In this document: positions 35,139-63,530 of the stretch, one piece after another | Layout: each line of letters opens with the position of its first letter | How positions within the stretch are numbered: the stretch's first letter is position 1 | Assembly (NCBI GenBank): GCA_016125275.1 | Contig: WGMB01000001.1 | Coordinates: 310,001-374,000, forward strand | Reading direction: 5' to 3' | Source: Acidobacteriota bacterium | Lineage (GTDB): Bacteria; Acidobacteriota; Terriglobia; Bryobacterales; UBA6623 | Length of the DNA stretch: 64,000 bases | Position numbers and translations under genes: made by a program | Notes under the pieces: model-generated | Told to the model about the DNA's origin: nothing | Database searches by the model: none | Seen by the model: only the letters and a program-made list of their open reading frames with translations

Positions 35139-35149
35139 GGAGCGATGCG

Positions 35150-39544: not shown

Positions 39545-39551
39545 AAATGTT

Positions 39552-43600: not shown

Positions 43601-44923
43601 GACGAGGCGCCGGAGACCCGTACGGTCGCCTCGGCCCAGCGTCCCATGACGGCGCCGCGTCCGGCTCCGCCGTCGGCCCGCACCCAAGGCTGGGACAACT
43701 TCGAGCTGCCGGACATGGAGGCCCTGGACAACCAGATGGCCGCGCTGGTCCAACAGGAGCGCCCGCGCTCGCGCCGCAGCGAGATCGAAGACCAAATCGC
43801 GGCGATCGAGGCCCGCAATACTCCGACGGCCGGCATGGGAGGCAGCACCCGTGGCCGCAGCGGCCGCACGGGCTTTGAGAGCCTGCGCGTGCAGGAAGCC
43901 GATTTTCGCGCCAGCGCGGTGGTCGGCAACCGGGTCCGCTTCAGCATGTCGGCGCGGCCGACCTACCTGGACGCCGGTTCTTGGGACGGCCAGAGCGACC
44001 TGCGCCTGGGCCTGTTGCCGGCCGGCAGCCAGTTCGGCGATCTGACCGCCAACGGCGTGGCGGGCGACCTGGAGATCGGCACGAAGACCTTCGGGCTCCG
44101 CTTCGGAACCACGCCGAGCGGCTTCCTGGTCGAGAACCTGACCTACGGCTTCCGCTTCACGCCGGGGGGCGGGCCCTTTACGGCGAGCTTCAATCGCGCG
44201 CCGGTCACCGATACGATGCTGTCTTTCGCCGGCTTGCGGGACCCCGTGACCGGGCAGGTCTGGGGCGGCGTGATGGCCGACGAGTTCGCCCTGCGCGGCG
44301 ACTGGGGCGGCGCCAAGCGTGGGGCCTATGCCAAGGCGGGCTACCAGAAGCTGACCGGCGACGGCGTGGCCGACAACAAGCGCATCGAAGTGACGGCCGG
44401 AACCTACTTCGAGGCGTTGCGCACCGACGAGGGCGCGCTGACGCTGGGCTTCAATCTCACGGGGCTGTCCTACGACAAGAACCTGCGCTACTTCACACTC
44501 GGCCAAGGCGGCTACTTCAGCCCCCAACGCTACATGCTGCTGAACGTGCCGGTGCATTGGCGTGGGAGCTGGCAACGGCGGTTCCACTACGACATCGGCG
44601 GCAGCATCGGCACGCAGTACGTGCGCGAGGACGCCTCGCCGTACTTCCCGACCTCGATTGCGCTGCAAGGCCGCTCGGGACCGCAGTACGCAGCGCTGTC
44701 TCGCACCGGCGCGCACTTCAGCCTGGACGCTCGCGGCGCCTACCACCTCGCCCCCAACTGGGTGATCGGCGCCTTCGTGACGGCCAACAACACCCGGAAC
44801 TTCACGGCGGGCTCGGCCGGCTTCTTTTTGAACTATTTGGTCAAGCCGCGCCCGATCGGCCAGGAGACCGACATCCCGCCGGTCCCGGACTGGACCGGAC
44901 AGCGGCCCTACTTCCTGCCGTAA
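40694..44923 (+). CDS. bcsC: Cellulose export outer-membrane protein BcsC (TPR plus barrel)
   Basis: 1409 residues. After a signal peptide (AAILFLLLGLLAGAPVGA) residues 25-890 are tetratricopeptide repeats (for example LLADPDQPDALAGLAKAARLDGRNAEAEQYL), a periplasmic superhelix that guides the glucan. A disordered Pro/Gln-rich linker occupies about 890-1070 (AQQAGPLPLFDEAPETRTVASAQ). The BcsC C-terminal domain (about 1075-1409) alternates polar and hydrophobic strands and contains ARPTYLDAGSWD, GGPFTASFNRAPVTDTMLSFAG and GGYFSPQRYMLLNVP, the 16-strand pore. The linker is longer than usual in E. coli. Confidence 0.93.
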   Translation: MTRKAAILFLLLGLLAGAPVGAADRAVQLLLDKAQALEGRGRLDMAAEAWRQVLLADPDQPDALAGLAKAARLDGRNAEAEQYLSRLRQVAPGHPALQSITDVKALGPYQAQLDEASRLSKEGKKEEAMRIYRDVFGEAPPAGGWAIAYYETLAATADGWKPAVDGLRKLSAKYPEADEYRLSLGRLLTYRPETRTEGMQMLAAIGEGPDAAPARQAWRQALVWAGPNRESLDSLNAYLSRYDDSELAALRDSVPAAGQARSAPTAGREIELGYKALREKDLEEAERQFRAALETAPSNAKALAGMGFVRMQQERFRAAVESLTAASQAAPGDEVILDALATARFWTSMDDGKTALEEGRTADSVAAYQTALSMRPSEADALRGLAGGLMKLGKPAEAAPVYEKLLGVEPLNDQAWADLVNARYEADGAVAALAASRDMPPAARERLDQNVSHLALMAVIYADTGREEHSRETLQRAMQLAAPNSVDLPEPIRLRLAGLQLRHGDAARAAKEFEDVLQADPSNLDAWEGALAGFVQAGDLAHARVLLSSTPDDVYYRAMQRPSFLYAAAKLHQAVGQLDTAEGFLRKALEAQPDPKSKEALGIRLELAYLLRDSGETDAAERQIRSLVDANPESADAHKALIGLLASAGRYEEASAAFAKLPLAVSSRLLNDPDFITILAGIYKETGRSEEALRMVREALATLAIEKKEPSPALRLQQAWLLLDQGGEDQKLFELLQAAREDPNLSTAQRKEFGEIWLIWSLREADRSREAGNVQRSASILVAAARMFPEDDRVRRALAGTLLEAGYAGQALVVYKSWGLRGAEAADYAGAIGAAMTVQDRAATNQWLREGLQKWPQDADLLTMAGRVAASRGDYKRAEAYWKAALQNMPTQNPAPGFPFDAQMGGPQGAGQQDPAGDLGRLLLADAGGSSSSLSDMSWLSPVGQAARQTPSPGGFAPSAQQAGPLPLFDEAPETRTVASAQRPMTAPRPAPPSARTQGWDNFELPDMEALDNQMAALVQQERPRSRRSEIEDQIAAIEARNTPTAGMGGSTRGRSGRTGFESLRVQEADFRASAVVGNRVRFSMSARPTYLDAGSWDGQSDLRLGLLPAGSQFGDLTANGVAGDLEIGTKTFGLRFGTTPSGFLVENLTYGFRFTPGGGPFTASFNRAPVTDTMLSFAGLRDPVTGQVWGGVMADEFALRGDWGGAKRGAYAKAGYQKLTGDGVADNKRIEVTAGTYFEALRTDEGALTLGFNLTGLSYDKNLRYFTLGQGGYFSPQRYMLLNVPVHWRGSWQRRFHYDIGGSIGTQYVREDASPYFPTSIALQGRSGPQYAALSRTGAHFSLDARGAYHLAPNWVIGAFVTANNTRNFTAGSAGFFLNYLVKPRPIGQETDIPPVPDWTGQRPYFLP

Positions 44924-44959
44924 GGCGAGCAGCCGGTTCTGATTCGCGGAGAGTCTTCG

Positions 44960-47062
44960 ATGTTCGAGCGCATGAAAACGCCTGGGTCAGCGGGGAAGGG
45001 AGCCGAGCGAAACGTACGGTTGCTGATCGCCGCGGCCGTGCTGGTCGCCGCGCCTGGGTTGCGGGCGCAGATGAGCTGCGCCTCGGCCGCCACTCCGGTC
45101 GCGGTGCGGGACCAAGGAGGGGCGGAGCTCACGGCGGATTTGACGCTGACCTGTACCGGCGGGCTGCCGGCCTTCGCCGGAGCGGATCTACCTCGCTTTC
45201 AGATCCTCGTGGTAGCAAACGCGGCGATCACGAGTAAGGACCTCGATCCCACCGTGGGCCGCTCGGCGGGTTGGAACGAGGCGCTGCTGCTGGTCGATGA
45301 TCCGGCGGCGGCGGCGCAGAGGCCCTGCGCGCCGCTGGACGCCGGGCCGCCGTGCGAAGCGATCCAGGGGAAGCCCGGGGCGCCGAATGTCTTCCCGGCG
45401 CGACGGGTGCAGGACAATGCCGTCGTTTTCTCGGGCGTGGCCTTCGACCCACCGGGACCGGAGGGCTCGCGGAAGCTGCGCATCACGAATGTGCGGGTGG
45501 ACGCAGCAGGCCTCGACGATCCGTTCTTTCCCGATGAGGTGCGCCTTACCGTGCAGATCTTTCCGGCGGGCGGCGGGACGATCGCCGTGAACCCCGCCGA
45601 GACGCTGGCTGCGCGAGTCGCGCCGGGGCTCACCTTTGGGTTGCGGACGGCCGAGGACGAGCCCGCGCCGGCCGCCGAGGCCGCGCTGGTGACCACGCCG
45701 GCGATGCTGCCGGAACAGACGCCCGACACCGAACAGTCGTTGCTGGTGCGCTTTACCGAGGGCTTTGCGAGCGCCTTCCGGCGGCGCAATCTGGCCACCA
45801 GCTCCGGCTCGCCGGCGATGCTGGTCGGGCAGGCGCTGCCCGGCGCGAGCTACGGCACGGAAACCGGCTTCTACAACCCGACGTTCGGGGCCGGCAGCGG
45901 CTTGGACCAGGCCGGTCTGGCGGATACGGGGACTCGCCTGAAGGCGGTTATCGAGTCGATCCCGGCGAATGTGGACGTCTGGGTCAGCCAGGCCGATGTT
46001 TCGCCGACCGGCGTCACGCACGCTCTGCTCACCTACACCGACGCTGACGGCGGGGGCGCCTTTACGCCCGCCACGGGGGCCAAGAACGGGTTCGTGAAGC
46101 TGGACGAGACCAACGGGATCGCCGTGGCGGTGTGGGAGGTGCTCAGCTCCGACGCGACCCGCATCGAGGATCTGACGTTTCGCGTGCTGCTCACGGCCGG
46201 CGACGGGGCCCCTGCGTCCGGCGTCGCAACGGTCTTCGGCGCGATGACGCCGTCGTCGTCGGCCAGCGCCGTGCTGGCGCCGCGCTTCGAGGAGACGTTC
46301 GACAAGCAGCGGGCCTTCGAGGTGAAGGACGTGGTGACGAGCGCCTTCTTCACGGTGGTTTCCGCGGCGAGCTATGACGGCGTCGCGGTGGCCCCGGACT
46401 CCCTGGCGGCAGGTTTCGGCGACAACCTTGCGCCGGGGCTGGCGGTGGCCCAAGGCTCGTTGCCGCTCGAGCTCGCCGGCTCGTCGATCGAGATGATCGA
46501 TTCGGCCGGAATGCGCTGGAACCCCCGGCTGATCTTCGCTTCGCCCGGGCAGATCAACTTCTGGATCGAGCCCGGCGTGACGGTCGGTCCGGCGGTGCTG
46601 AACGTGCTGCGGAACGGTCGTCTGGCGGCTTCGGGGCAGATCGTGGTGGCGGCCTATGCGCCTTCGGTGTTCTCGGCGAACGGCGATGGAACGGGCGTCG
46701 CGGCGGCGGAGCTTCTGCGCGTCTCCAATGGTTCGACCACGCCGGAGCCGGTGGGCGTGTACGACGCGGAAGAAGGCCGCTGGCGGCCTCGGCCCGTGTC
46801 GCTGGGCCCCGACGGCGAGTTGCTGTTCCTGACTCTGTATGGGACCGGGATTCGCGGCCGCGCGAGACTGGCGGACGTCCGCGCCGAAGTGGGCGGCCAG
46901 GTCGTGCCGGTGATCTACGCCGGAGCCCAGTCCGAGTACGCCGGGCTGGACCAGATCAATCTGGGACCCCTGCCGCGGTCTCTGGCCGGCAAGGGCGAGG
47001 TGGACATCGTGCTGCGCGTGGCCGGCCGCACTTCGAACCGGGTAACCGTCGCCTTCGAGTAG
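44960..47062 (+). CDS. Secreted protein with TIGR03437-like C-terminal domain
   Basis: 700 residues with an Arg-led signal peptide (LLIAAAVLVAAPGLRAQ). Residues 40-460 consist of beta-sandwich modules (AVRDQGGAELTADLTLTCTGGLP, YGTETGFYNPTFGAG, NVDVWVSQADVSPTGVTHALLTY) whose family I cannot name. Residues about 465-700 form the TIGR03437-type domain (VSAASYDGVAVAPDSLAAGFGDNLAPG, FASPGQINFWIEPGVTVGPAVLNVLRNG, LFLTLYGTGIRG, YAGAQSEYAGLDQINLGPLP), matching that of the GH5 protein. It lies 36 nt after bcsC with a GGAGAG site, so it is probably cotranscribed and might interact with the exported glucan. That link is inferred. Confidence 0.85.
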   Translation: MFERMKTPGSAGKGAERNVRLLIAAAVLVAAPGLRAQMSCASAATPVAVRDQGGAELTADLTLTCTGGLPAFAGADLPRFQILVVANAAITSKDLDPTVGRSAGWNEALLLVDDPAAAAQRPCAPLDAGPPCEAIQGKPGAPNVFPARRVQDNAVVFSGVAFDPPGPEGSRKLRITNVRVDAAGLDDPFFPDEVRLTVQIFPAGGGTIAVNPAETLAARVAPGLTFGLRTAEDEPAPAAEAALVTTPAMLPEQTPDTEQSLLVRFTEGFASAFRRRNLATSSGSPAMLVGQALPGASYGTETGFYNPTFGAGSGLDQAGLADTGTRLKAVIESIPANVDVWVSQADVSPTGVTHALLTYTDADGGGAFTPATGAKNGFVKLDETNGIAVAVWEVLSSDATRIEDLTFRVLLTAGDGAPASGVATVFGAMTPSSSASAVLAPRFEETFDKQRAFEVKDVVTSAFFTVVSAASYDGVAVAPDSLAAGFGDNLAPGLAVAQGSLPLELAGSSIEMIDSAGMRWNPRLIFASPGQINFWIEPGVTVGPAVLNVLRNGRLAASGQIVVAAYAPSVFSANGDGTGVAAAELLRVSNGSTTPEPVGVYDAEEGRWRPRPVSLGPDGELLFLTLYGTGIRGRARLADVRAEVGGQVVPVIYAGAQSEYAGLDQINLGPLPRSLAGKGEVDIVLRVAGRTSNRVTVAFE

Positions 47063-47064
47063 CC

Positions 47065-50000
47065 TTAGGGCTCCTTGCGCGGGGTCAGCCGCATCCAGCC
47101 TTCACTGACGCCTGCACGGGCCGGCGGAACCGCGCCGACCGGCGGCAGCGGAGGCACGAGGGACGACAACCATTCGCCGGGCTGGCCGTCCTCGCCGGGC
47201 TCGTAGCGGACCCATTCCACGTCGTGGCCCTCGACCTGGGGCGTCGGCAGAATCGGGTTGAGCGCCCCCAGTGACGGGATCGACAACAACGGCCCGACCC
47301 GAAACGTCGGCTGAAGCCGCTCCACGCCGGCGAGGAACTCCTTGGGGACGACGATCTTCTTGCGGGGCAGGGCGCCGCAGACCGCATGAAGACCGGCCCC
47401 CGCTTCCACCAAGACCGTGAGATCGAGCTTGTCTCCCAGTGCCACCGGGAAGGCGCACTCCAGCCCCGCCACGAACGGATGATTGGCGGGCTTTTCGGTG
47501 ATTCCGCCGGAGGGTAACTCGTTGAGGATGGCCTTCTCGGCCGCTTCGGCGTCGACGGGGGCGAACCGGCCCGCGGCGGGTTCGGGGCCGGGCAGGAAGC
47601 AGCCGAGCACGCCGTCGTCAGGACGGCTCTGATCCCCAATGCGCACCTGCAATGTGGGAAGGGCGGGCGGCTGAGCCGGAGGCGGCGGATCGCCCTTGAG
47701 GGCCTCGGCGGCGGTCTCGCCGGTCGCCTCCAACCAAACCCCGGCGGCGAGAACGGCGATGGGATCGCCGGTGAGCCGGACCTTGCGGTCCTTGACCTTC
47801 TGCTTGGGGTCGATGGAAGGCCGCAGCGTGTCGATGATACGCATCAGTGCGGTGAGCCCGGTCTCAAACAGCTCCGTCTTGGGCTGGCTAGGCGGAACCG
47901 AGACGCCGCCTTGTGCCGCCACGCCTTCCACCAAGCTGCGCAGCCGCTGGTTCTCGATCACGGCAAGGGGATCGTCCGCGGCCCCCAAGCCCATCTCCGC
48001 GAGCGTCCAAGGGTGCGCTTCGAACCAGCAATTGAGCGTGGCGGACTGCTGGCTGCCCCGCTGCGGCGGATCGCTGCGGACCTGCCCCAGGGCTCGGCCG
48101 GAGGCGTCGTAGACCTCCAGGGCGTGCTCGAAGAGATCGGGCACGAGGAAGCCGCACAGCGGCGTGTCCTTGAAGGTGGCGTCCTGGTTCGGGTCGTCGG
48201 CGGACAGCAGCCGAAACCGCAAGCGACTCCAGTACGGCAACCGAGGGCTCAGGGCCGTCCACCACGGCAGCGTGTCGTCGCCGGCCGGGGAAGAGGGGTC
48301 GGCGATCTGCGAGATCCAGGAGCGGCGGGCGCCGAACGCGTCGATGAGGTCGAGCTTGTTGAGCCGCAGCGCGCCGGTCCGTTGGCGCTTGCCGCGCTCG
48401 TAGAGCGCCTGATCGAAGCCGGTGAGCGGCGCCGACAGGACGGCCATCTTCTTGAAGGTCTGGCCGTCGACGCCGTTCGGCGGCTTGCCGACCTTGACGG
48501 GGTTGCCGTACTTGTCGAGGGTGAGCTGCGTGACCAGGGCGCTTTCGAGCGTGTGCACGATCGTGCTGGTCAAGAACGAGCGCTCATCGAACACCTCGAC
48601 TTGGCCGGCCGGTGGCTCCGTGGCGGCTTCGGTGAGCGGGCGGAACTCTACGCTCGGCGGTTTGTCTCCCAAGCCGTCGAGGGTCCAGTCGGTCTCGAGC
48701 GACGAGAAGGGGTGGGCGTAGTTGACGTCGGCGAACAGAGGGTCCCAGGGATCGCGCCAGGGCAGATAGGCGACGGGGCTCGGCTCGCGGCCCTGTACCA
48801 TCGACAGGATCTGGGTCTTGGCGGCCGGCTGCAAGTCCGGCTCGCGCAGCAGCCACAAGGCGTGGGAGGCTTCTTGGAAGGACTTCTCGGCGGCGTTGAG
48901 CGCGGCGGTCGCGGCGCCGGGCAGGCTCTGGAAAGCCATCTCGTCGGCGTTCGAGGAGTCGAACAGCGTCGTCTCCTCCACTAATGCCCGGGCTTCGGGC
49001 GGCAGGCCGGCGTTGGAGCCCAGTGCGGCCGTGTTGTTGACGATGTTGCGCGCCAGGACGATCTTGCCCGAGCCGGTCTTGATGCTGGTGAGGGTCTCCC
49101 CGCTGACGCGGCAGCGCAGCATGCCGCTGGCTTCGAAGCGCCCGTCCTCGCCGAAACGGAAGGAGCGGCCCTGGCCGGTGACGACAATCTGCGGGGACCA
49201 GGGGCGGTACCAGCGAGGGCCGGGTAGCTCATAGAGGCGATCGGCGTCCGGCAGGCTGACGCCGGCTCCGTGGACCGCGATCAGGAAGCGCCGCATGGCG
49301 TCCGCGTCGGTGACATCGAGCCAGTAGCCTGCGCCGTCGGAACCGCGACCACCGGCGGCCGGACCCAGCAGCATGGGCTGGGCGGTCGGGCGGCTGTCTC
49401 GGACGCGAACGATGGCGGGGTCGATGGGCGAGCCCTTGGCCTCCGCTTCGGAAGCTGCCGAAGCCAGCGCGGACTGCACGTCCGCCATCCAGGCGCCCAG
49501 CTCGGCCGGCGTCGGCTCATAGGGCTTGGCGGTCTGGGGTTTACGCTGCAAGGAATCCTTCAGCTTGTCCTTGGACAGCGCGCTGGATTGCACCGCGGCC
49601 GAGCGCGTGCTGATGGCCGGCCAGTGCCCCGAGGCTTGCCGCGTCATCGCCGTGTTGACGTTGCTGAGCGCTTTGGAGAGATCGAGCTTGGGGGCCTTCT
49701 GTAGGACCGCGGCGCGCGCGAAGACGTCGATCTGGGCGTAGAACCGGCTCTTGCCCGGCGCGCTCTGAAAGCTCAGGGCGTGCAGCGCCGCAGGCAGGTC
49801 GAGGACGCCGCTCTGCGTCTTGGCTTGCTGGCCGTCGAGACTCTGCAAGAGAGCCTCGACCATCTCGACCTTGTTGGCGTCGTCGAGGCTGGCGACGGCG
49901 GCCATCGCCGTCTTGACGGATGGATAGACCTGGATGTCGCCGTGCTCGAACGAGGGGGGCGCGGCGGCGGGGGGCTTCAAGGGGACTTCCACGACGGCGC

Positions 50001-50976
50001 CGTGGCAGACGATCTCGCTCGGTACGGTGGAGGTCAGGACCTGTCCGGCGCCCGTGGAGAGGCCGGGCTGGACCTGCGCCGCCGAGACCGCGATGGCTTG
50101 CGCGCTGCGTTGCATCGCCTCGGCGCGTCCAGTCTGCCGCATCTGCTCGCTGATGCGTACGGCGTTGCGGGTCTGCAGGGAGGCCTGCACCGTGCGGGAG
50201 GCCGGCGCTTGCGCGACCTTTGCCGATGTCGGGATGAACTGCACGGCGGACTGCGCCGCGGCGCTCGTCACCAACGTGGGCAGGAGGTGGAATGGACGAG
50301 CCTTCCAGGCGAACTTCCAGGCCTTCATCCGGGCCTTGCGATCGGGCGAGCGATGGAGGGGGTCCTGGGACGGTGCGGCGAACCAGCCGACGACGGAGTA
50401 GCTGACCGGCCCGGCGGAGGTTCCCAGGTCGGCCAGATCGTCGTGGAAGCCGAACCGACCGCGGGCTGTGGGATAGTAGGCCGCCACGGCCGGGTTGAAG
50501 GAGCCCTGCTCGTTGTTGTTCCACACGCCCCAGCCGGGCTCGCCGAGGGATTCGGCCGACGGCAGCAGGCCGGCGAAGGTGTGGACGGAGGCTGCGTCGA
50601 CCGACGTGGGCGGCGACCAATCGTCGAGGCGCACGTTCGTTTGCGTTCGCGAATCGACCACCCAGGCTCGCCAGCTTCGCTTGACGTGGCGGGGCAGTTG
50701 GCCCACACGCCCGATCGCGGCGCGGCCGCTGGGCGGCGGATTGAATCGCACCACCAGCCAGAGGTCCGGGACGCCGGGGAAGAGAGTGCGGCGACCGCCC
50801 TCGGCGTCGATGAAGCGAGCCCGAGTGAGGGCGTCGGGCAGCGCCCAGTGGACGTGTACGCCCGGCTCGAGCGTCGCGTCGAGGTTGAACGCGCCGCCGC
50901 CGAGGGACGGGACGGGAGTCGCCTGAGCGACCACCTTCGCCTCCACATGGACCGGGACCAGGATGGAAAGCGACAT
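47065..50976 (-). CDS. Giant unknown protein of the five-gene operon (1303 aa)
   Basis: 1303 residues, last gene of the operon. There is no signal peptide or membrane helix. The N-terminus is SLSILVPVHVEAKVVAQ, then a stretch FNLDATLEPGVHVHWALPDALTRARFIDAEGGRR. The middle is Ala/Gln/Ser-rich and probably helical (about 225-480, MRQTGRAEAMQRSAQAIAVSAAQVQPGLS). The C-terminal half has beta-rich blocks (WRDPWDPLFADVNYAHPF, YWSRLRFRLLSADDPNQ, PLCGFLVPDLFEHALEVYDASGRALGQVRSDPP). Four or so cysteines only. The ATG overlaps the stop of the 350-aa gene by one base and has GAGGAG 8 nt upstream. I do not recognise a family. It converges with the TIGR03437-like protein gene, 2 nt between stops. Confidence 0.85.
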   Translation of the reverse strand: MSLSILVPVHVEAKVVAQATPVPSLGGGAFNLDATLEPGVHVHWALPDALTRARFIDAEGGRRTLFPGVPDLWLVVRFNPPPSGRAAIGRVGQLPRHVKRSWRAWVVDSRTQTNVRLDDWSPPTSVDAASVHTFAGLLPSAESLGEPGWGVWNNNEQGSFNPAVAAYYPTARGRFGFHDDLADLGTSAGPVSYSVVGWFAAPSQDPLHRSPDRKARMKAWKFAWKARPFHLLPTLVTSAAAQSAVQFIPTSAKVAQAPASRTVQASLQTRNAVRISEQMRQTGRAEAMQRSAQAIAVSAAQVQPGLSTGAGQVLTSTVPSEIVCHGAVVEVPLKPPAAAPPSFEHGDIQVYPSVKTAMAAVASLDDANKVEMVEALLQSLDGQQAKTQSGVLDLPAALHALSFQSAPGKSRFYAQIDVFARAAVLQKAPKLDLSKALSNVNTAMTRQASGHWPAISTRSAAVQSSALSKDKLKDSLQRKPQTAKPYEPTPAELGAWMADVQSALASAASEAEAKGSPIDPAIVRVRDSRPTAQPMLLGPAAGGRGSDGAGYWLDVTDADAMRRFLIAVHGAGVSLPDADRLYELPGPRWYRPWSPQIVVTGQGRSFRFGEDGRFEASGMLRCRVSGETLTSIKTGSGKIVLARNIVNNTAALGSNAGLPPEARALVEETTLFDSSNADEMAFQSLPGAATAALNAAEKSFQEASHALWLLREPDLQPAAKTQILSMVQGREPSPVAYLPWRDPWDPLFADVNYAHPFSSLETDWTLDGLGDKPPSVEFRPLTEAATEPPAGQVEVFDERSFLTSTIVHTLESALVTQLTLDKYGNPVKVGKPPNGVDGQTFKKMAVLSAPLTGFDQALYERGKRQRTGALRLNKLDLIDAFGARRSWISQIADPSSPAGDDTLPWWTALSPRLPYWSRLRFRLLSADDPNQDATFKDTPLCGFLVPDLFEHALEVYDASGRALGQVRSDPPQRGSQQSATLNCWFEAHPWTLAEMGLGAADDPLAVIENQRLRSLVEGVAAQGGVSVPPSQPKTELFETGLTALMRIIDTLRPSIDPKQKVKDRKVRLTGDPIAVLAAGVWLEATGETAAEALKGDPPPPAQPPALPTLQVRIGDQSRPDDGVLGCFLPGPEPAAGRFAPVDAEAAEKAILNELPSGGITEKPANHPFVAGLECAFPVALGDKLDLTVLVEAGAGLHAVCGALPRKKIVVPKEFLAGVERLQPTFRVGPLLSIPSLGALNPILPTPQVEGHDVEWVRYEPGEDGQPGEWLSSLVPPLPPVGAVPPARAGVSEGWMRLTPRKEP

Positions 50977-52028
50977 CAGTCTTGCTCCTCGGTTGTCAGC
51001 AGCGACGACGCCCGGGTGGTGATCTTGTCGATGTGCACGAAGCGCCCACGCCGCAATTGAAGGGCCGGCTTGCCCTGCACCACGCCGAACTGCCGGGCGG
51101 ACTTGGAGCCGTCGCTCTCGGGCTCGGCGTTGGTGAAGACCTGCACATAAGGCAGTTGCTCGAGAGTCAAGGCCACGTCTCGTGCGCCCGGCTTGCGGCC
51201 AGGCTTGCCGGGCGTCCACTGCGCGCTGGCGCCGATGTTGGCGGCGGTTTGCTGGACGTTCAGCGTCCTCTTGGCGCTGTCGCGCCAGGGAACGTTGATG
51301 TTGACCGGGTCGCCCTGCGGAGTCTTCGCGAAGACTCCGTCGAAGCCGCGGAGGTTGACCTTGTTGCCCGGCTCGACGCCGAAGCGCATGGCCACATCGG
51401 GCTCGCGGACCTCGACCTGGGTCGGCAGGCCCGCAAACAGCGCGATCATCACGTCGCGGGAGACGGGCTCCTTGCGGAGGATGGCCATGGACTTGTTGAG
51501 CAGCCCCTGCTTCTTCTTGGCTCGGACGACGAGATCGGGCCAGCGGCGCACCAGCTCGGAGCGGATCAGCATGCCGGTCATGGGCTCCTTGCCGGCGGTC
51601 CAAGGGACGCCCGGGTTTTGTTCCTTGACGATGGCTTCGAGTTGGTGGTCCAGGCCGTCGCGGATGAGCGTCAGGGCGGCCGCTGCAAAGGTCAGGTCGC
51701 TGGTCCCGATGCCCGCAACGGAGAGAGCGCCGTCCACGAGGCGGTCGGTCCAGGTAGGGTCCACATAGAAGAAGCGGATGGACTCCGGAGGGAGCAAAGC
51801 CGGGTCGGGGACCAAGTGGGTGAGCGGCACGCCGCGCAGCAGACGCAAGCCCACCAGCCAGGTGCGCAGGCGTTCCGGGATGTCCACGTAGTAGTCGAAC
51901 GGCCCTTCGAAGTGATCGGGAGGAGTGACGACCAAACCGTCCGGTCCGGATTCGAACTGGAACTTCTGCACCCAGTCCTGCAACTGCTGGACGGAGGTCT
52001 TGTCGGAAAGCGGTTGGTACATAGCCAT
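50976..52028 (-). CDS. Unknown protein of the five-gene operon (350 aa)
   Basis: 350 residues, cytosolic by appearance. The first part, about 15-120, contains FEGPFDYYVDIPERLRTWLVGLRLLRGVPLTHLVPDPALLPPESIRFFYVDPTWTDRLVDGALSVAGIGTSDL, which breaks up (over 20 residues, positions given only) into an N-terminal domain with strongly conserved-looking aromatic and Pro residues; a helical region with KKKQGLLNKS and a C-terminal domain (MIALFAGLPTQVEVREPD) follow. No cofactor motif. The ribosome site AGGAGG overlaps the stop codon of the upstream gene, so the genes are read in sequence. Family unknown; related phrases (VPLTHLVPD, PESIRFFYVD) suggest to me a conserved partner protein of the same cluster elsewhere, not checked. 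Confidence 0.83.
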   Translation of the reverse strand: MAMYQPLSDKTSVQQLQDWVQKFQFESGPDGLVVTPPDHFEGPFDYYVDIPERLRTWLVGLRLLRGVPLTHLVPDPALLPPESIRFFYVDPTWTDRLVDGALSVAGIGTSDLTFAAAALTLIRDGLDHQLEAIVKEQNPGVPWTAGKEPMTGMLIRSELVRRWPDLVVRAKKKQGLLNKSMAILRKEPVSRDVMIALFAGLPTQVEVREPDVAMRFGVEPGNKVNLRGFDGVFAKTPQGDPVNINVPWRDSAKRTLNVQQTAANIGASAQWTPGKPGRKPGARDVALTLEQLPYVQVFTNAEPESDGSKSARQFGVVQGKPALQLRRGRFVHIDKITTRASSLLTTEEQD

Positions 52029-52041
52029 GCTTCGATTCCTC

Positions 52042-53553
52042 CTAGTGGGACTTCGTGATCGCCACGACCTCGGCGAACGCCTCGTGTAGGACCTGTTCGC
52101 CGATCGAGCCGATCTCGATCTGGCCGATGGGGGACTGCTCGATGCCGGCGAGCTGTTCGATCTGGTTCATCACGCTCTGCTTCCAAGGGGCGCTCTGGGC
52201 GGCGATGCCGGTGAAGTCGGCCTGGCCCGGCTGCAGCAGTTGCAACTCGTTCTTGAGCATCTGCTGGTTGCCTGGCAGGGTGTAGGGATCGTCCCACCAC
52301 TCGGGGTCCACCACCCAGTCGGGCCGCCGCAAGGCGTCGGGCAGCTTGTCGATGGCCACGGGAACCTCGATCTCGGGCAGGATCGGCCCGAACTTGATCT
52401 GGTGCAGGTCCTCGGCCAAGCCTTCGCCGGCGAGGGTGGACAGGCGGCCGATCTCGAAGGCGGCGGCGTGGGAATAGTCCGGCGGGTCTCCATGTTGCGC
52501 GCCGTCGAACTCTTCGGGCGCCGGCCGGACCGCGAAGCCCCGGCTGCGTAGCGGCGGCGCGAAGGGCCGCAGCGGCCCGCGGTACTCCACTTGCGTGCCG
52601 TCCTGCTGCAATTGCGCGGGAGGCAGCAGGTAGCCCGCGTCGTCGAGCATGGCGGCGAAGCCCCCCGAGAGCTCCGGCTCACCTGCGGCGTGACCCTTGG
52701 GCAGGTTGCCGAAGCGCAGCACGCCTCCGTGTGGGCGCACCCGGATGGCCTTGATGACCTCCTCGAAGTCGCCTCCCGTGCTCGGCGTGAAGCTCCAGTA
52801 GTGCAGCACGATCAACGGCGTGGTGGCGCCGGAGGGGTTCTGGAGGTCCGTGCGCTGCTCCAGGGAGACCAAGTACGCGTAGTGCGGCTCGGGCTTGTCG
52901 CCCGAGGCGTCGGGCAGCCTGCCGCTGACCACCACGGCCAGGTCGCGGTCGTCGTCGAGCTTCGCCAGGGGATTGTCCTGCGCGGCTCGGCGGACGTGGC
53001 ACAGCAGAGGGACGTCGTCGAGTGAGAGGACCTTTTGGAGCGTCGTCGTGGGGGCGAAGACGACGTCGATCGCGGTGGAATCGGTGAGTCCGGCGGCCTT
53101 GAAACGGGCATAGGCCTTAGGATGGGTGGTCTTGACCCCGGCTACGGTGGTCGGCGTGATCGGCTGGGCGTCGCCGCCCCGAGCGAAGCGGCGGCCGATC
53201 TCGGATTGCTTGAGCAGCAGCAGCGCCAGCCAAGGCGAACCGGGCTTGGGCCCGACGCGCTCCCATGGCAGCGTGCGTCGTTTGAGGGCGATGTGCGGCA
53301 GAAACTCGTCGGGGGAGGTGTCGCTCCCGGGCGAGGGGAAAACGCCGACGATGTCGGAGTCGAGCAGCGTCGTCTGCGGCCCTTCCACGCGCAGGTGGAC
53401 GGAGGCGCTCCCGGAAACGTTCAGCAGATCGACCTTGCCGCCGCCGTTCTTGGGGCGCGTGAGCGTTTGCGAGATGTCGATCTGGATCTGCTGGCCCGAA
53501 TCGACGAGCGGATCGCAGGCGTTGAAGACTTGGGTGGCGTCGGGGTTGCTCAT
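52042..53553 (-). CDS. Unknown protein of the five-gene operon (503 aa)
   Basis: 503 residues without signal peptide or membrane helices. The first 100 residues are beta-rich (QQIQIDISQTL, SGSASVHLRVEGPQTTLLDSD, VFPSPGSDTSPDEFLPHIALKRRTLPWERVGP), followed by a mixed domain (PWLALLLLKQSEIGRRF, VVVSGRLPDASGDKPEPHYAYLVSLEQR, LIVLHYWSFTPSTGGDFEEVIKAIRVRPHGG) and a helical C-terminus (AAAFEIGRLSTLAGEGLAE ... KQSVMNQIEQLAGIEQSPIGQIEIGSIGEQVL). No enzyme motif is evident. The ATG overlaps the stop of the giant upstream gene by 4 nt and lacks its own strong ribosome site, so it depends on coupling. Family not recognised. Confidence 0.83.
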   Translation of the reverse strand: MSNPDATQVFNACDPLVDSGQQIQIDISQTLTRPKNGGGKVDLLNVSGSASVHLRVEGPQTTLLDSDIVGVFPSPGSDTSPDEFLPHIALKRRTLPWERVGPKPGSPWLALLLLKQSEIGRRFARGGDAQPITPTTVAGVKTTHPKAYARFKAAGLTDSTAIDVVFAPTTTLQKVLSLDDVPLLCHVRRAAQDNPLAKLDDDRDLAVVVSGRLPDASGDKPEPHYAYLVSLEQRTDLQNPSGATTPLIVLHYWSFTPSTGGDFEEVIKAIRVRPHGGVLRFGNLPKGHAAGEPELSGGFAAMLDDAGYLLPPAQLQQDGTQVEYRGPLRPFAPPLRSRGFAVRPAPEEFDGAQHGDPPDYSHAAAFEIGRLSTLAGEGLAEDLHQIKFGPILPEIEVPVAIDKLPDALRRPDWVVDPEWWDDPYTLPGNQQMLKNELQLLQPGQADFTGIAAQSAPWKQSVMNQIEQLAGIEQSPIGQIEIGSIGEQVLHEAFAEVVAITKSH

Positions 53554-56500
53554 GCTTCGAAGTCCAGGTCGAGAGTGGAGGTCGCCGGACGGGCGGGCTC
53601 CGGCTGCCGGTCGTCGGTCATGTCCCAATGGGCCGAGGAGCTCAGCCAAGCGAAGGTTTCGCGCTGGCTCTGAGGCCGCCACACCGCGGCGCAAAGCCGC
53701 CATTGCGGGCCCAGATCGACGTCGAGGGTCCAGGGCTCGTCCGCCCGGACGGCCATCGTGAGCGCCAGCCGGTCCGGCCGCGTGACGGTGAGTAGCGAGC
53801 CGAGCTCTGCGTCGAGGCTGCGCCAGCGGATTTGCGTCGGGTCGGGCTCGGCTTCGCCTCCCACCGGCTCGCAGTAGACGACCAGCGTCCCGTTGGGCGG
53901 CACGGCCGGGAAGTGGACACGCATGTTCGGCGCCGCACGCAACAGGTCCGCGCCGACCCAGGGGTCGAGCGCAGCGACGGGCTCGCCGACGGAGCTGGAG
54001 GCCTCCACCACGCAGCCGTGCCCGGCGAAGGAGCGGGCGCTCAGAGCGGTCAATAGCGAATCCAGCTCGACGCCGACGGCTTCCACAGCGCGCGCCGGGC
54101 CCGCGGCGCCTGTCAGGACCGGGCGGGCCGGGGCGACCGGAGCCGCGACGCCTTCGCCGAAGAACACCGCCTGCCGTGCGCGCGGCGGGATCGGCCCGGA
54201 GTGGTTCGCGGGCAGGTAGAGGTCAGCCACCGGCTGGCCCTGGGTTCCCAGGAAAACGGCGCGCACGATCTGGGCGCCCTTGAGGGTCAGCGAGCCGCGG
54301 ACGGCCCGCTCGGCCGCCATTTCGAGGTGAACGGCCTCGCCGGTTGTTACCTGAGCCTGCGACTGGTCCCGGGCGCCCACTCGCTGCAGCGGCAGCCGGA
54401 CGGACTTGGCCAGCGTCAGGGAAGGCCGCAAACCGACCGCGACGGGCCGAATCGTCGGCCGCGGCGCTGCCGGAACGCGTGGCGGAACCGTCCGCAAGGC
54501 GATGTCACGCATCTCGATGCGGCGGACCGGCGACGGCGGCGGCGTGACGACAGGGATATTCGCCGGGCGCGTGGCAAAGCCTGAGCCTGCCAGGGCGGCC
54601 AGCTTAGTCGGCCTATCGAGCGTGACGCTGCGGATCGCCAATTGCAGGGGCTTGGCGACGCGGGCCTGGATGCGCTCGCGCACCAGCAGCTTGCGGTTGA
54701 GCGTCAGGCTGGGACGCTGCGAAGGCGCTTTGAAGACTCTGCCTCCCGCGCCCAGAATGAGCTGGGGCTTCGGCGCGCGCAGCGTGAGCGTCCTCGATGG
54801 AGCCGCCAGCGGCAAGGGGTAACGCTCATCGCCCAGCGACGGCTCCTCGGTGGTGAGGATGTCCCAGTCCTTGGCCTCCGCCGGCTCGAACTTCGGTAGG
54901 TAGGTGAACGACAGCCCCTCGGTGAGGTCGACGACCGCTTCGTCGGTCTTGACCTGCCCGATCAGGGCCTTGGCGAACGAGTCCGGCTGGGCCACTTGGA
55001 TCTCCGCGCCGAACTGCGCCGCGGGGAAGGCGTCGTCGAGCAACGCGGGGAGGGCCTGGCCGACCTGCGGACCCTCGATGCGCAGGGTCGAGTCAAGGTC
55101 GTCGGCGTTGGGGCACAGCGGCAGGTCGACGCTGGAACTGATCGAGACGGCGTTGGGCGGGAACGGCCCGACCAGCGCCTGGATTGCGCCCAACGGGAGC
55201 CGGGTGCGGACGGAGAAAGCGAACTCCGAGCCGACGCGGATCGGGTCGGAAGCGCTGACGCCTTCCTGCGCATCGCTCTCGGACTCGGCCTTGGCCGTGC
55301 GTCCCCACAGCAGATCCAGACGGAACAGGCCGGCCCGATCGGCAGTCGAAAGAGCCGCCACACGGGCGCCCTCGGCGCTCCACGGATCGGACTCCACGCC
55401 GAGCTGCTTCTCGAAGAAGTCCGGGATCGGCAGCGGCGGCGTACCGTTGAGCTGGTCGCCGAACTCGATGTCGAAACTCACCAGCAGCAGGTCGATCGTG
55501 GCGACGCCGCCGAGCGGGGGAGTGTGGATCTCGAGCTTGACGCCGATCTCATGGCGGCCCATGAACTCGAACCAAACCACGACGCCGAGCCGCCCTTGGA
55601 TGAAGAACGGGTCCCACTGGATGTAGACGTCGATATAGACGTCCAGCCCGGCGCCGATGCCGGCGAACTCGGCCGACAGAGACACCGACGCGCCCGCCAT
55701 CATCGCCTGGGGCGTGGTGGCGAAGTAGCACTGCACGGACATCTTGATGAAGCCGTACACGGTGGCCGTCACGCCCACCCGGTCGAGCTGCGGATAGTGC
55801 TCGGGGACGGGGAAGGAGTTGTGGTAGCCGCCGATCGAGAACACGAAGTCGCCGGCGTGCTGGCCGCTGTGCCAAGCGGCCAAGCCGAACTGCCCGTGCA
55901 GGCTGAAGATGTCCGGGTGGATGACGTAACTGTTGTGCGACAGCCCGGCGATGAGCTCGAAGACTTCCTGGTTGGCCGTAGCCTGAATTTCGAGCTCGAA
56001 GTAGGCCACCGGATTGATGCCGAAGGCGGCCGAACCGAGGATCTGCAGCGAGAAGCTCGGGAACCCGATGACGACGACTAGCTTGCCCTGGATGAAGCCG
56101 AAGGAGAGGAACTGGACGCCGGCGGCGATCCAGTTTTGCCCTTGGGCGGGGAGGAACTGCTTGCCCAAGGTCTTGAGCGCTTCGCTCGGCCCGCCGCCCA
56201 GCGCGATTTCGCCGCGCATCACCCGCATGAAGGGGTTGTCCGAGATCGGACCCGGCGGGGGCAGCAGGCGATTGTAGCCGAAGCCGCCGGCGATGCCTGT
56301 GATGAACAGGTAGGGCGGTCCGCCCAACGGGGCCACCAGCGAGGCGAACAGGAACAGCGACTCGGAATCGTTGGGCAGCTTGGTGTAGCCGCCGATGGCC
56401 GAGAGCTCGAAGAAGTCGACGACCGAGACGACCGCCGCTCCTACATAGTCGTTGTCGATCTCGGCGAAATGGCCCGCCAGCTTGATGCCGCCGACGTCCA

Positions 56501-58541
56501 TGCTCAGCCCCAGGCCATGCAGAAAGGGCGTGGGCGCGGTGTTGCTGAACGGGATGCGAACGCCCAGCTCATAGGGCGTGACGCTCACCGGGCCAAGCGT
56601 GAATGCCGCGTCGAGCGCGATCTCCAGGGCGTTCTGATCGACCTCCACGTAAAGGGTGCTCAGCTCCAGCGGGCCGATGGTTTGCTGGATCGGAATCTGA
56701 CCGCCGCCGCTCGGGATGATCTTGTCGGGCGGTTGCCACTCGACGGCGAGGGAGAAGCCCGGAGCCTCGGTCATGTCGCCCAGCAAGGCGCCGGCGACAC
56801 CGCCCGCGCCCGCGCCGGAGGGGTCGATGCGGACGTCCTCGAGACGGAACTTCACTGACTGCAGGGGCTCGGCGTTGGCCAGCGAGAGCTTGGCGTCGAG
56901 CCCCGCCTTGCCGATCCGCACCGGCGAATCCTTCAGCGCCTCGGCGACCTTGTCGAGCTTCAGCTCGGCCTGGACGACCGCGCCGGATTCGAGGTCGATC
57001 ACAAAGAGGTCGCCCAACTCCAGCGCGTCCTGGTCGCCGACGGCCGCCAGAATGGCCGCCACGATCGCCTGCGGGTCCGGGCTCTGGTTGCGAATCGCGG
57101 CGCTGAGAATGGACTGCAACGCGGCGACGATGTCCTGCGCCGGCGTGCCGCTAGAGGCCGCCGCGATCAGCGACAGCACTTCGTCGAAGGCTTGCTCGGG
57201 CGTGTTGGGCGAAGGGATGGGGCCGCCGCCCGTGGGCGGAAACGCCAAGCCGAGGGGGGGCGTGGTCGGCAGCGTAATTTCGTAGCCGACAGGCAGCCCT
57301 TGCGTGAGCAGCAGGTCGAACTTGAGCGGGCCGCCGAAGCCGGCCGTGGCCGTCAGGGTTTCGCTGAAGAGCGTGAGCTTGGTGGGATTGGTTCCCGAGG
57401 CGGACATCCAGCCCGGCAGGGGGTAGGAGCTGAGGTTGGCGGGATTGTCGAGCAGGTTCGGCCGTGTCAGCGTCCCGCCGGAGCTCTTTGCCAGCGGAAT
57501 GGTCAGCTTGGACTGACCGTTCTGCAGGCGAATGACCAGTTGCAGCTTGTTGCCGTCGAGCGCGTCTTCCTCGATGCCCAAGAAGGCGCCGGGAGTGGTG
57601 GGCGCCAGTGAACCGGCGCTGTCGGCCAGACTGGGCAGGCTGCCGGCGGAAGGCGGCTCGTCGATGGGGAAGAACAGGGAGCCGTCGAGGAAACTGGAGC
57701 TCTCGTTGCCTGTCAGCAGGGCGCGCAGATGCCACAGGCACGTCAGCGCCCCTTGCGCCCCGCCGTCGAACTTGAGCACGGAATCCACCCAGGGGTCGAA
57801 GTCCGGCGCTTGGCCCATGTTGGCCGCCCCGAAGAAGGGGAAAGGCGCGATGGGGCCGCCCGGAGGGCCTCCGAAGATGGGGAAGAGGTGCTTGTCGATC
57901 CGGTCGAAGAAGGTGTCGCCGCCGGTGGTCTGGTCGCGCACCCAGGCCTGCAGGATGAAGACCGCCAAGCGAACCGAATCCCAGGCGAGCTGCGGGCCGG
58001 GGATGGTCAGCGTGCGGGCGTTGCTTGCATCGGCGTTGACCGTCAGGCCGACTTGGGTGGGGTTGGGGACCTCCCCTTGCAGCGACGCCGAGTGCAGAAA
58101 GTCCGGAACGGGGATCTTGCCGCCGAAGACGAAGCCCGGCAGGTCTCCGGCGATGTCTCCGTTCTGGATGGTGAGCAGCCGGGCCAGCACCGCGAGGTCG
58201 ATGCTCTGTCCCCCCACCGGAAAATTCGCCGCCGCCCCCAAGCCCAGTCGCAGCGGGTCGGTCTTGCCGCCGGCATTCCAGGCGAAACCGACGCCGACGG
58301 ACGAGCCGAGGTTGATGGGTTCCCATTCGAGCCCAGCCAGGGGAAAAGGCGGCTTCTGTCCGCTCGGTCCCTCCTGGAGGATCGACTGCAAGAGATCGTG
58401 CAAGCGGTCGCGATGCTCGGGCATCGACAGCAGCGACAGATCGAGCGGATCGCCGAACCACGCGAACTGCACGACGCCGTTGTCGTCAAAAAAGGCGATG
58501 AGCTTGCCGAACGCCAACAGGGCCTGAGTAGGGTTCGGCAT
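53550..58541 (-). CDS. Giant DUF6603-like protein of the five-gene operon (1663 aa)
   Basis: 1663 residues, the largest in the window; AAGGAGG lies 6 nt before the stop/start overlap TGATG. There is no signal peptide and no membrane helix. Residues 1-600 alternate amphipathic helices and strands. About 600-1150 is a long beta-rich region of hydrophobic and aromatic strands (ESLFLFASLVAPLGGPPYLFITGIAGGFGYNRLLPPPG, FGFIQGKLVVVIGFPSFSLQILG, FSIGGYHNSFPVPEHYPQLDRVGV, DVYIDVYIQWDPFFIQGRLGVVVW), which resembles DUF6603 proteins of bacteria and fungi; that match is from memory. About 1250-1420 is an Arg/Pro-rich linker, and 1430-1663 a beta domain ending in ATSTLDLDFEA. Function unknown; a scaffold, shell or tail-fibre-like protein is conceivable. 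Confidence 0.85.
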   Translation of the reverse strand: MPNPTQALLAFGKLIAFFDDNGVVQFAWFGDPLDLSLLSMPEHRDRLHDLLQSILQEGPSGQKPPFPLAGLEWEPINLGSSVGVGFAWNAGGKTDPLRLGLGAAANFPVGGQSIDLAVLARLLTIQNGDIAGDLPGFVFGGKIPVPDFLHSASLQGEVPNPTQVGLTVNADASNARTLTIPGPQLAWDSVRLAVFILQAWVRDQTTGGDTFFDRIDKHLFPIFGGPPGGPIAPFPFFGAANMGQAPDFDPWVDSVLKFDGGAQGALTCLWHLRALLTGNESSSFLDGSLFFPIDEPPSAGSLPSLADSAGSLAPTTPGAFLGIEEDALDGNKLQLVIRLQNGQSKLTIPLAKSSGGTLTRPNLLDNPANLSSYPLPGWMSASGTNPTKLTLFSETLTATAGFGGPLKFDLLLTQGLPVGYEITLPTTPPLGLAFPPTGGGPIPSPNTPEQAFDEVLSLIAAASSGTPAQDIVAALQSILSAAIRNQSPDPQAIVAAILAAVGDQDALELGDLFVIDLESGAVVQAELKLDKVAEALKDSPVRIGKAGLDAKLSLANAEPLQSVKFRLEDVRIDPSGAGAGGVAGALLGDMTEAPGFSLAVEWQPPDKIIPSGGGQIPIQQTIGPLELSTLYVEVDQNALEIALDAAFTLGPVSVTPYELGVRIPFSNTAPTPFLHGLGLSMDVGGIKLAGHFAEIDNDYVGAAVVSVVDFFELSAIGGYTKLPNDSESLFLFASLVAPLGGPPYLFITGIAGGFGYNRLLPPPGPISDNPFMRVMRGEIALGGGPSEALKTLGKQFLPAQGQNWIAAGVQFLSFGFIQGKLVVVIGFPSFSLQILGSAAFGINPVAYFELEIQATANQEVFELIAGLSHNSYVIHPDIFSLHGQFGLAAWHSGQHAGDFVFSIGGYHNSFPVPEHYPQLDRVGVTATVYGFIKMSVQCYFATTPQAMMAGASVSLSAEFAGIGAGLDVYIDVYIQWDPFFIQGRLGVVVWFEFMGRHEIGVKLEIHTPPLGGVATIDLLLVSFDIEFGDQLNGTPPLPIPDFFEKQLGVESDPWSAEGARVAALSTADRAGLFRLDLLWGRTAKAESESDAQEGVSASDPIRVGSEFAFSVRTRLPLGAIQALVGPFPPNAVSISSSVDLPLCPNADDLDSTLRIEGPQVGQALPALLDDAFPAAQFGAEIQVAQPDSFAKALIGQVKTDEAVVDLTEGLSFTYLPKFEPAEAKDWDILTTEEPSLGDERYPLPLAAPSRTLTLRAPKPQLILGAGGRVFKAPSQRPSLTLNRKLLVRERIQARVAKPLQLAIRSVTLDRPTKLAALAGSGFATRPANIPVVTPPPSPVRRIEMRDIALRTVPPRVPAAPRPTIRPVAVGLRPSLTLAKSVRLPLQRVGARDQSQAQVTTGEAVHLEMAAERAVRGSLTLKGAQIVRAVFLGTQGQPVADLYLPANHSGPIPPRARQAVFFGEGVAAPVAPARPVLTGAAGPARAVEAVGVELDSLLTALSARSFAGHGCVVEASSSVGEPVAALDPWVGADLLRAAPNMRVHFPAVPPNGTLVVYCEPVGGEAEPDPTQIRWRSLDAELGSLLTVTRPDRLALTMAVRADEPWTLDVDLGPQWRLCAAVWRPQSQRETFAWLSSSAHWDMTDDRQPEPARPATSTLDLDFEA

Positions 58542-59029
58542 CAGGCGCCTCCTTCGGCTTCGATGTCGACGTGGAGCTGATCGGAACCGCAGGAGAAGCC
58601 CAGGATGTTCAACGAGCGGCCGGGCAGGCGGCGCTCGGCCAGCGCCAGGCAACCTTCTAGAACGTCGAGCACCCCGTCCCAGAGCACGCGTTGGAGCTCG
58701 CTGCCCCAGAGCTGGGCAAGTTGGGCGGCCTCACGGCTGTCGGTGTGGATGGTGGCGCCGGCCTGACTGCCGTCGCCCTCGCCGTCCGAGCCGAGAAAGA
58801 AGACGAACTGAAGCAGGCGGCGGCCGGTGGGCTCGGTCTCGACAAAGAGGTCGGCGAGCAGCCAGCCGTCCTTCACGCTGACGCGCAGCGTGGTCAGGTG
58901 CACTAGCAGGAGTTGGCCGTCGCGCTGCCACAGCGCCGAGCGGGCGTTGCTCGGGGCGCCGGCCCGCAGGCGAAACGCCAGCCGCTGGGTGAGCTCGGCC
59001 GAAGGGGTCGACCAGCGCGCTACCGCCAC
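58541..59029 (-). CDS. Small first protein of the five-gene operon (162 aa)
   Basis: 162 residues from a GTG preceded by GGAGGG. It has a mixed alpha/beta pattern (TQRLAFRLRAG, GQLLLVHLTTLRVSVKDGWLLADLFVETEPTGRRLLQFVFFLGS, then helices EAAQLAQLWGSELQRVLWDGVLDVLEGCLALAERR). No family recognised. Its stop overlaps the ATG of the giant gene (TGATG). The reading frame just upstream is closed, but a neighbouring frame (from an ATG at 59102 or GTG at 59123) encodes a coding-like peptide MTFAQKPLSALLRAAPKTSLLG that would lead into this protein if one base were shifted near 59030, so the true N-terminus is uncertain. Confidence 0.75.
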   Translation of the reverse strand: MAVARWSTPSAELTQRLAFRLRAGAPSNARSALWQRDGQLLLVHLTTLRVSVKDGWLLADLFVETEPTGRRLLQFVFFLGSDGEGDGSQAGATIHTDSREAAQLAQLWGSELQRVLWDGVLDVLEGCLALAERRLPGRSLNILGFSCGSDQLHVDIEAEGGA

Positions 59030-59381
59030 GGCGCCCTCCGAGCAGGGAGGTCTTGGGCGCCGCTCGCAACAACGCGGAGAGCGGCTTTTGGGCGAACGTC
59101 ATCTCGTCCGCCGAAGCGGACACGAATCCAAACGGGAGTGGCGGGCATGGGGGGACCTCGCTGCTTCCTGGCTGAAATTCTCGATTTGGGCGCTAGTCGG
59201 TCGCTACATTCAGGGCAACTGTACACGCGATCCCGCGGGCGATCAAGGGAAACTTCGGGGGACCGGAGCGAGGCTTCGAGGTCCGGTGCGAGAAACACCA
59301 CGAAAGGCCCCTTAAACGCAAGAAACCCCGGCGCTTTCGCACCGGGGCTCTTTGCTTCTCCAACCAACCTGGCGTGAGGCT
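59030..59381. other. Intergenic region upstream of the five-gene operon
   Basis: 352 bp. It holds the shifted-frame coding-like stretch (59035-59102), the presumed promoter of the leftward operon (TTGCCC near 59213 on the minus strand is the best -35 candidate, with no clear -10), and the terminator of the radical SAM gene at 59316-59350. No complete gene otherwise. Confidence 0.45.
59316..59350 (-). terminator. Intrinsic terminator of the radical SAM gene
   Basis: Stem CCCCGG (59326-59331) with CCGGGG (59342-59347), extended by GC/GC across one mismatch around a short TTTC/GAAA loop. On the minus strand the stem is followed by TTTCTTGCGTTT. It lies 35 nt beyond the stop of the radical SAM gene and separates it from the five-gene operon. 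The plus-strand side is also T-rich (CTCTTTGCTT). Confidence 0.7.
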
Positions 59382-61514
<2,133 letters not shown>

Positions 61515-61697
61515 TGTGTCTCGCGTCTCCTGGGGCGGACAACCGTCCGCGGATCTCGATGAGTGTAGATTAGGCCGTCGATTTGGCGCGCGCTAGCGGG
61601 CTCTGTCGAATGGCAGTTATTTGCAGCGGATGGCGACTTGGCGGGTTGAATGGGTGCGGCGGCGGAACATTGTGTCGGTTCGATGTAGCGAATGGCG

Positions 61698-63476: not shown

Positions 63477-63530
63477 CTCCCGATGATGCCATACAACGAG
63501 GGCCGCGACAGCCCGGTTGGCCCGAGGGTT

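Follow-up and report, generated by a model that had tools for sequence, protein, structure and literature searches.

In a 64,000-nt stretch of an Acidobacteriota genome (contig WGMB01000001.1, positions 310,001 to 374,000; hereafter the window), five adjacent genes, A to E, form an operon that is a simple form of a widespread yet rare multi-gene cassette, for which we introduce the name "DUF6603 cassette" after the domain carried by B. In every assessable locus whose DUF6603 match exceeded the Pfam cut-off, the DUF6603 gene was followed by C–D or by a gene termed X, and then, wherever the sequence went on, by either E or Y(–Z). The products B, C–D and E or Y probably associate physically, and we infer, with a probability of roughly 0.4, that they make up a co-assembled giant scaffold that would bear an interchangeable enzyme towards a target.

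The window operon and its closest relative

A to E lie on the minus strand and sum to 3981 residues. A first-pass annotation, made from the sequence alone, had described five leftward open reading frames (ORFs) of 162, 1663, 503, 350 and 1303 aa, and both these lengths and the junctions proved exact when the coordinates were rechecked. A and B overlap by 1 nt (TGATG), B and C by 4 nt (ATGA), and D and E by 1 nt; 13 nt separate C from D, and the ribosome site said to cover a stop codon is an AGGAGG that overlaps the TAG of C. The resemblance of the 1663-aa protein to DUF6603 held as well, with a Pfam match (PF20248) at E = 6e-99 and 332 bits against a curated cut-off of 27, covering residues 618–1047.

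Both of the proposed borders were also found. The terminator is real (12-bp stem at 59323–59350, −29.9 kcal/mol, z = −5.24); it is located upstream of the operon and by position belongs to the preceding radical-SAM gene. On the other side, a convergent gene has its 3' end at 47062, two bases off the end of E. One promoter-like site was detected in 46900–61600, where 0.6 would be expected by chance, and it is positioned within the radical-SAM gene.

A scan of 84,980 species genomes with short peptide patterns of E, which detects close relatives only, returned one locus, L014, from a Gemmatimonas metagenome-assembled genome (MAG); for this MAG contig, assignment to a phylum depends on binning and the record title. 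It comprises all five genes in the window order with 63–69% identity over aligned codons, including a B ortholog of 1663 aa that is 63% identical to the window's, and its A begins with ATG at the residue where the window's A has GTG. Its junctions are as in the window (TGATG, ATGA, TAATG, a short C/D gap, and TAGGAG over the stop of C). Between the two loci, nonsynonymous divergence (dN) was 0.24–0.27 and synonymous divergence (dS), which is high and therefore rough, was 1.1–1.5 in every gene. The dN/dS ratio was about 0.2 in each of the five, indicating similar purifying constraint on all. Because L014 retains all five ORFs and their junctions, and selection on them is purifying, they are more than chance ORFs.

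Gene order of the cassette

Whole-genome samples from two phyla, the window's and that of L014, were searched together with plasmids. DUF6603 was detected in 10 of 396 genomes of the former phylum and in six of 249 of the latter. With the core of B as tblastn query, 12 plasmid records were matched, including Rhizobium and two haloarchaea. E as query against 72,556 plasmids gave eight records, from Streptomyces (three of them S. clavuligerus), Embleya and Paenibacillus, and the Embleya C–D protein gave the identical eight. Relatives were thereby placed in Actinomycetota, Bacillota, Alphaproteobacteria and a haloarchaeon.

Neighbourhoods were taken for all genome matches and for nine of the 12 plasmid records (without two S. 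clavuligerus copies and Natrinema), and their six-frame ORFs were scored with profiles to which many of the resulting 27 loci had themselves contributed. L024 was dropped before counting as the same record as L018, and the longer L063 and L062 replaced L020 and L021. Twenty-eight DUF6603 ORFs were scored. One of them (L056) ends its contig, and all 27 others were immediately followed on the same strand by a C–D or X gene. The next gene was E in 12 loci and Y in 13, the contig ending first in two. Z came after Y in 12 of the 13 loci, the 13th lying at the edge of the fetched stretch. E and Y were found together in none of the loci scored.

The first-pass annotation had marked the operon as a self-contained unit and had looked to members recurring together in the same order as support for a system. 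This view finds strong support: the complete order A-B-C-D-E was found in five loci of two phyla and the core B-C-D-E in 14 loci of four phyla, with largely congruent trees and reciprocal co-occurrence as described below. The enzyme genes that precede the cassette in relatives and the Y–Z alternative lay beyond the single window that the annotation had to go on. Gene A was detected in those five loci (the window, L014, L045, L046 and L057). The DUF6603 ORFs of L045, L046 and L057 are 3326–3657 codons long, and BLAST at E 1e-3 revealed no internal repeats in them. One genome carries three DUF6603 cassettes within 55 kb (L041–L043; G348 contig 77, 10000–65000).

Six further loci that had contributed to no profile came from 150 genomes of the window's order, eight of which had DUF6603, seven of them above the cut-off and the window's own included. 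In all six, C–D or X came next, followed by E in L077 and L078 and by Y–Z in L075, L076, L079 and L080; none has gene A. When X and E were each used alone as a query over 150 genomes of the order, they were detected in four and three genomes, respectively, which together are exactly the seven above-cut-off DUF6603 genomes, at the same places. Neither was found outside DUF6603 genomes among the 150, with only some candidates scored per genome. The three 150-genome searches seem to have used the same draw, as judged by the listed handles (not all were listed). Across the 396 genomes of the phylum, E was present in three, every one of which also had DUF6603.

Two weak DUF6603 matches had no cassette partners (G305/L047, E 2e-8, above the Pfam cut-off; G694/L081, E 8e-5, below it). 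Both are located in ORFs of about 2400 codons that probably represent another family, and they were counted neither among the 27 loci nor among the six held-out ones.

Kinship and joint inheritance of the parts

Profile comparison shows C to be a homologue of the N-terminal part of X (hhalign probability 97%, E 2e-11). D matched the C-terminus of X, which keeps the order of the two parts, at E 1.6e-4 and 50% probability, and at E 0.005 and 7% with fewer X sequences; a relationship between the two is suggestive only. Homology of E and Y was considered for a similar short start motif seen by eye and dropped, as profile comparison gave nothing.

Among the 15 E-type loci, C and D form one ORF in eight (L015–L019, L025, L058 and L077) and two ORFs in seven (the window, L014, L026, L045, L046, L057 and L078), a pattern typical of physical partners. 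The trees of B, C, D and E, built from 12 E-type loci, had 7–8 of nine splits in common, and their distances correlated with Mantel r of 0.79–0.96, values reached in none of 5000 permutations. The pairings of the window with L014 and of L046 with L057 recur in all four trees, and both span phyla, provided that the title of L014 places its genome correctly, so that the set has probably moved as a unit. For the most part the cassette has been passed on as a single unit, seemingly across phyla as well.

Fixed order, translational coupling, C–D fusion, exclusive co-occurrence and similar trees together make a physical complex likely.

Sequence features of the five proteins

The absence of signal peptides and membrane helices, claimed by the first-pass annotation, was borne out when hydropathy was computed and the N-termini were inspected: neither a signal peptide nor a membrane helix was seen in the five by these means, without a dedicated predictor, and the highest 19-residue mean was 1.78. 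It had also seen no recognised catalytic motif, and no conserved one was found here. Eight of 11 catalytic and metal motifs were absent from the five proteins, and SxxK (six occurrences, 7.8 expected) and DxDx[TV] (three, 2.0 expected) were near expectation. GxSxG, with five occurrences against 2.0 expected from shuffles, was the one motif clearly above it; of the four sites placed on alignments with relatives, none is conserved outside L014, and L014 itself already lacks the fifth (B79). Cysteine content was 0.0–0.5% in B–E and 1.2% in A.

A, C, D and E had no Pfam match up to E 1, and of these only D matched anything in NCBIfam and PHROGs (E 0.12 and 0.29). No PADLOC anti-phage defence family was assigned to any of the five. 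Sequence searches of the PDB with A, B, C, D, E, Y, Z and F gave no credible match (E 0.077–1, noise). AlphaFold2, run on the B core and on C with two sequences each (window and L014), gave a mean predicted local distance difference test score of 28.2 and 30.8, respectively, too low to serve for a fold search.

Genes at the ends of the cassette

The next recognised same-strand gene upstream was assessed in 32 loci, namely the 27 and the six held-out ones less L009, which has no upstream sequence. A recognised enzyme gene precedes DUF6603 in 12 of them. It encodes a PhoD-like phosphatase in L038, L062 and L076, a trypsin-like protease in L044, L040 and L054, a metallo-beta-lactamase-fold protein in L016, L017 and L026, a subtilase in L053, a tyrosinase in L055, and a phospholipase D at the second copy in G348. 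The trypsin-like match of L054 is below the Pfam cut-off and its gene is separated from DUF6603 by about 0.8 kb; L040 has tandem proteases, the one nearest to DUF6603 below the cut-off and the next above it; and in L016 a separate ORF matching the N-terminus of B lies between the enzyme gene and DUF6603. Where no enzyme was recognised, the upstream position was taken by A, by an unknown protein, or by no recognised adjacent same-strand gene. The upstream genes of L075 (SxxK-like) and L078 (nuclease-like, with GDFNxDP and SDHxP) resemble enzymes in these motifs, had no Pfam match and were not counted.

The trypsin-like and subtilase members have in common a C-terminal tail of about 110 residues (25–38% identity, BLAST E 1e-5 to 2e-14). 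When 396 genomes were searched with the tail, two of them had strong matches, three in number; each of the three lay upstream of DUF6603, and two were in tandem. One marginal match occurred away from DUF6603 (G318, E 9e-4). No strong match away from DUF6603 was found in the 396 genomes, scoring being limited to 11 candidates in each.

Downstream of E, five of the six Actinomycetota loci (L016, L017, L019, L025 and L058, not L026) encode a family, F, whose members look fibre-like from repeats read by eye. The F protein of L016 contains a discoidin F5/8C domain (PF00754, E 1e-12), and one of the two in L017 a PLAT domain (PF01477, E 9e-16). On plasmid pSCL4 of Streptomyces clavuligerus, both ends are occupied, with a metallo-beta-lactamase-fold gene alongside B, C–D, E and F.

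Neighbouring genes in the window

Feature positions are given in Table 1. A cellulose synthase operon converges on gene E, and the 700-aa protein facing E contains a Solibacter C-terminal domain (TIGR03437). On the 5' side, the radical-SAM protein is possibly a bacterial membrane-spanning-lipid enzyme, judged by its nearest family. Upstream of its gene, proteins of 186 and 484 aa (61478–63492, minus strand) had no Pfam match at E 0.001.

Table 1 Features of the window by position.
Feature	Position	Strand	Description
GH5 cellulase	31769–33604	−	
Cellulose synthase operon	34143–47062	+	BcsQ-like, 1469-aa BcsA–BcsB fusion, GH8 (BcsZ), BcsC, 700-aa protein
Gene E	47065–50976	−	1303 aa, giant protein; Y–Z in its stead in the other cassette type
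Gene D	50976–52028	−	350 aa; equals C-terminal part of the fused C–D protein of relatives
C/D gap	52029–52046	−	13 nt; AGGAGG overlaps TAG stop of C
Gene C	52042–53553	−	503 aa; equals N-terminal part of the fused C–D protein of relatives
Gene B	53550–58541	−	1663 aa, DUF6603 protein
DUF6603 domain in B	55401–56690	−	B residues about 618–1047
Gene A	58541–59029	−	small protein of 162 aa, GTG start; 5'-most gene of the cassette
Intrinsic terminator	59313–59350	−	5' of the cassette; by position ends the radical-SAM gene; marks the 5' border
Radical-SAM protein	59382–61514	−	710 aa; nearest NCBIfam model is tetraether lipid synthase Tes (321/450 bits, below cut-off)

Proposed mechanism and alternative explanations

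Varied enzymes at one place, a shared tail and ligand-binding domains encoded downstream hint at a complex that takes an enzyme to a target. B, C–D and E, which are giant and lack signal peptides, would come together in the cytoplasm as a single scaffold or particle; the first-pass annotation had likewise suggested a stoichiometric intracellular particle or complex. The product of the front gene (A in the case of the window, an enzyme in other loci) would be a cargo or accessory subunit, attached in one subset via the shared C-terminal tail, and fibre-like proteins, where present, may aim the assembly at a surface. Its likely role would be to carry or display the enzyme against an extracellular target or one within a neighbouring cell; exit would be by lysis or by another route.

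Several observations weigh against this proposal. An upstream enzyme was unrecognised in 20 of the 32 loci, where not every upstream gene was scanned, and in the window itself neither a recognised enzyme nor an F gene is present, A occupying the front place. Tail-bearing enzymes occur in four loci only (L040, L044, L053 and L054), and the strong tail matches come from the loci that built the query, so that the information lies in the absence of the tail elsewhere. No release or secretion gene was identified. The A relative of L045 (976–1656) begins with a strong membrane helix that the window's A does not have, and the X proteins of L044 (10990–14184) and L040 (6190–8118) contain, midway along the chain, an extended hydrophobic stretch resembling a membrane helix; with these, a membrane-bound complex fits as well as a released particle. 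Single and scattered homologues, which the first-pass annotation had held to speak against a system, were not seen, with one exception: a Paenibacillus sonchi plasmid (L015 10809–16217) carries C–D plus E split in two ORFs, and DUF6603 is absent from the record. This is perhaps a decaying copy of the cassette.

An intracellular immunity or conflict system, in which the giant proteins would sense or scaffold and the upstream hydrolases would act as suicide effectors, is an unlikely alternative. The model for it is the NTP (nucleoside triphosphate)-dependent conflict systems of multicellular bacteria, which are reported to have exchangeable trypsin and subtilisin effectors and effector-associated domains (PMC7159879). 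The enzyme classes overlap in part with those of the cassette (trypsin, subtilisin), one tail on different proteases recalls effector-associated domains, and the cassettes are patchily distributed and carried on plasmids. In Streptomyces sp. NBC_01276 (L019 1933–6989), CATRA conflict-system and CHAT genes are located some 5–10 kb upstream of the cassette. The five window proteins differ from those systems in having no Pfam match to MoxR, vWA, STAND or GTPase domains; they also contain no Walker A motif or other NTPase Pfam domain and no PADLOC match, and discoidin and PLAT domains downstream are ill-suited to a purely intracellular sensor.

The convergent cellulose synthase operon fits a surface or matrix assembly, in which a layer on the cell surface or in a biofilm would bind enzymes and serve no attack function. 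The discoidin and PLAT domains of two Actinomycetota loci and the membrane helix in one A relative can be read in the same way, as can the record labels of the haloarchaeal genes, taken as given, which assign a BGTF surface domain to Y and a lamin-tail domain to Z. The window's five showed no sign of either a signal peptide or a membrane helix, and this explanation also seems unlikely to us.

That the operon encodes separate large enzymes that do not interact is improbable. Operon coupling alone is no proof of a complex, and GxSxG, a hydrolase-like motif, is over-represented; against this stand the single C–D ORF of some relatives, the exclusive co-occurrence of the genes and the likeness of their trees, and no conserved catalytic motif was found in the five. 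A remnant or domesticated phage or tailocin structure, suggested by large structural-looking proteins, fibre-like downstream genes and two "phage baseplate assembly protein V" genes 9–14 kb upstream on Paenibacillus polymyxa plasmid p-YT9A, is highly improbable and was rejected as unsupported, since PHROGs gave nothing beyond E 0.29 for the window's five and nothing beyond E 0.01 (families of unknown function) for eight relatives, the B core had no match in 50,697 phage records, and viral contigs, scanned for patterns of B, D and E, yielded no relative.

Apart from this question, p-YT9A also carries pentapeptide-repeat and nuclease genes upstream of its cassette (L024 13611–18606, same record as L018).

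Relation to known systems and meaning

Extracellular contractile injection systems and tailocins are large sets of signal-less proteins with cargo and fibres. The cassette is similar in being a large signal-less set with possible cargo and fibres, but no Pfam match to their sheath, tube, baseplate or ATPase families was found in the five proteins or in the products of 10 neighbouring genes scanned. Encapsulins and other cargo-loaded shells take up various cargo enzymes with a common C-terminal tail; different enzymes with a common tail are seen here too, although the tail is about 110 residues long and confined to four loci. The umbrella toxin particles of Streptomyces, as reported (PMC11062931, PMC13274773), are secreted multi-protein assemblies with exchangeable toxic and binding parts. 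They resemble the cassette by analogy only, as a soil-bacterial multi-protein assembly with exchangeable parts, and differ in that they are secreted, whereas the window proteins have no visible signal peptide; Pfam and PDB searches of the cassette proteins, by which likeness to Umb proteins was judged indirectly, gave no credible hits.

In Pfam, DUF6603 is one domain of unknown function, whereas here it belongs to a fixed multi-gene cassette with two alternative halves. DUF6603 or PF20248 is named in no paper found in the open-licence full text of PubMed Central, and the literature on giant genes, large proteins and Acidobacteria, judged by titles and the start of abstracts among the matches listed, contains nothing on the cassette. 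The cassette may be new in kind, in that no known kind was matched at the sequence level in the tests made. More tentatively, and with considerable doubt, it might represent an undescribed class of enzyme-carrying machine: a giant scaffold (B, C–D or X, and either E or Y–Z) built in the cytoplasm and loaded with a hydrolase or another enzyme that is exchangeable and specified by a gene at the 5' end, with fibre aiming in some lineages, and exchanged as a package among bacterial phyla and an archaeon.

A domain of unknown function thus marks a multi-gene system with a strict grammar, and what was one orphan domain is now a concrete set of five genes in one operon. If the parts form a complex, it would be a new bacterial and archaeal protein machine with interchangeable enzymes, with a possible bearing on microbial competition and possible use as an engineering scaffold.

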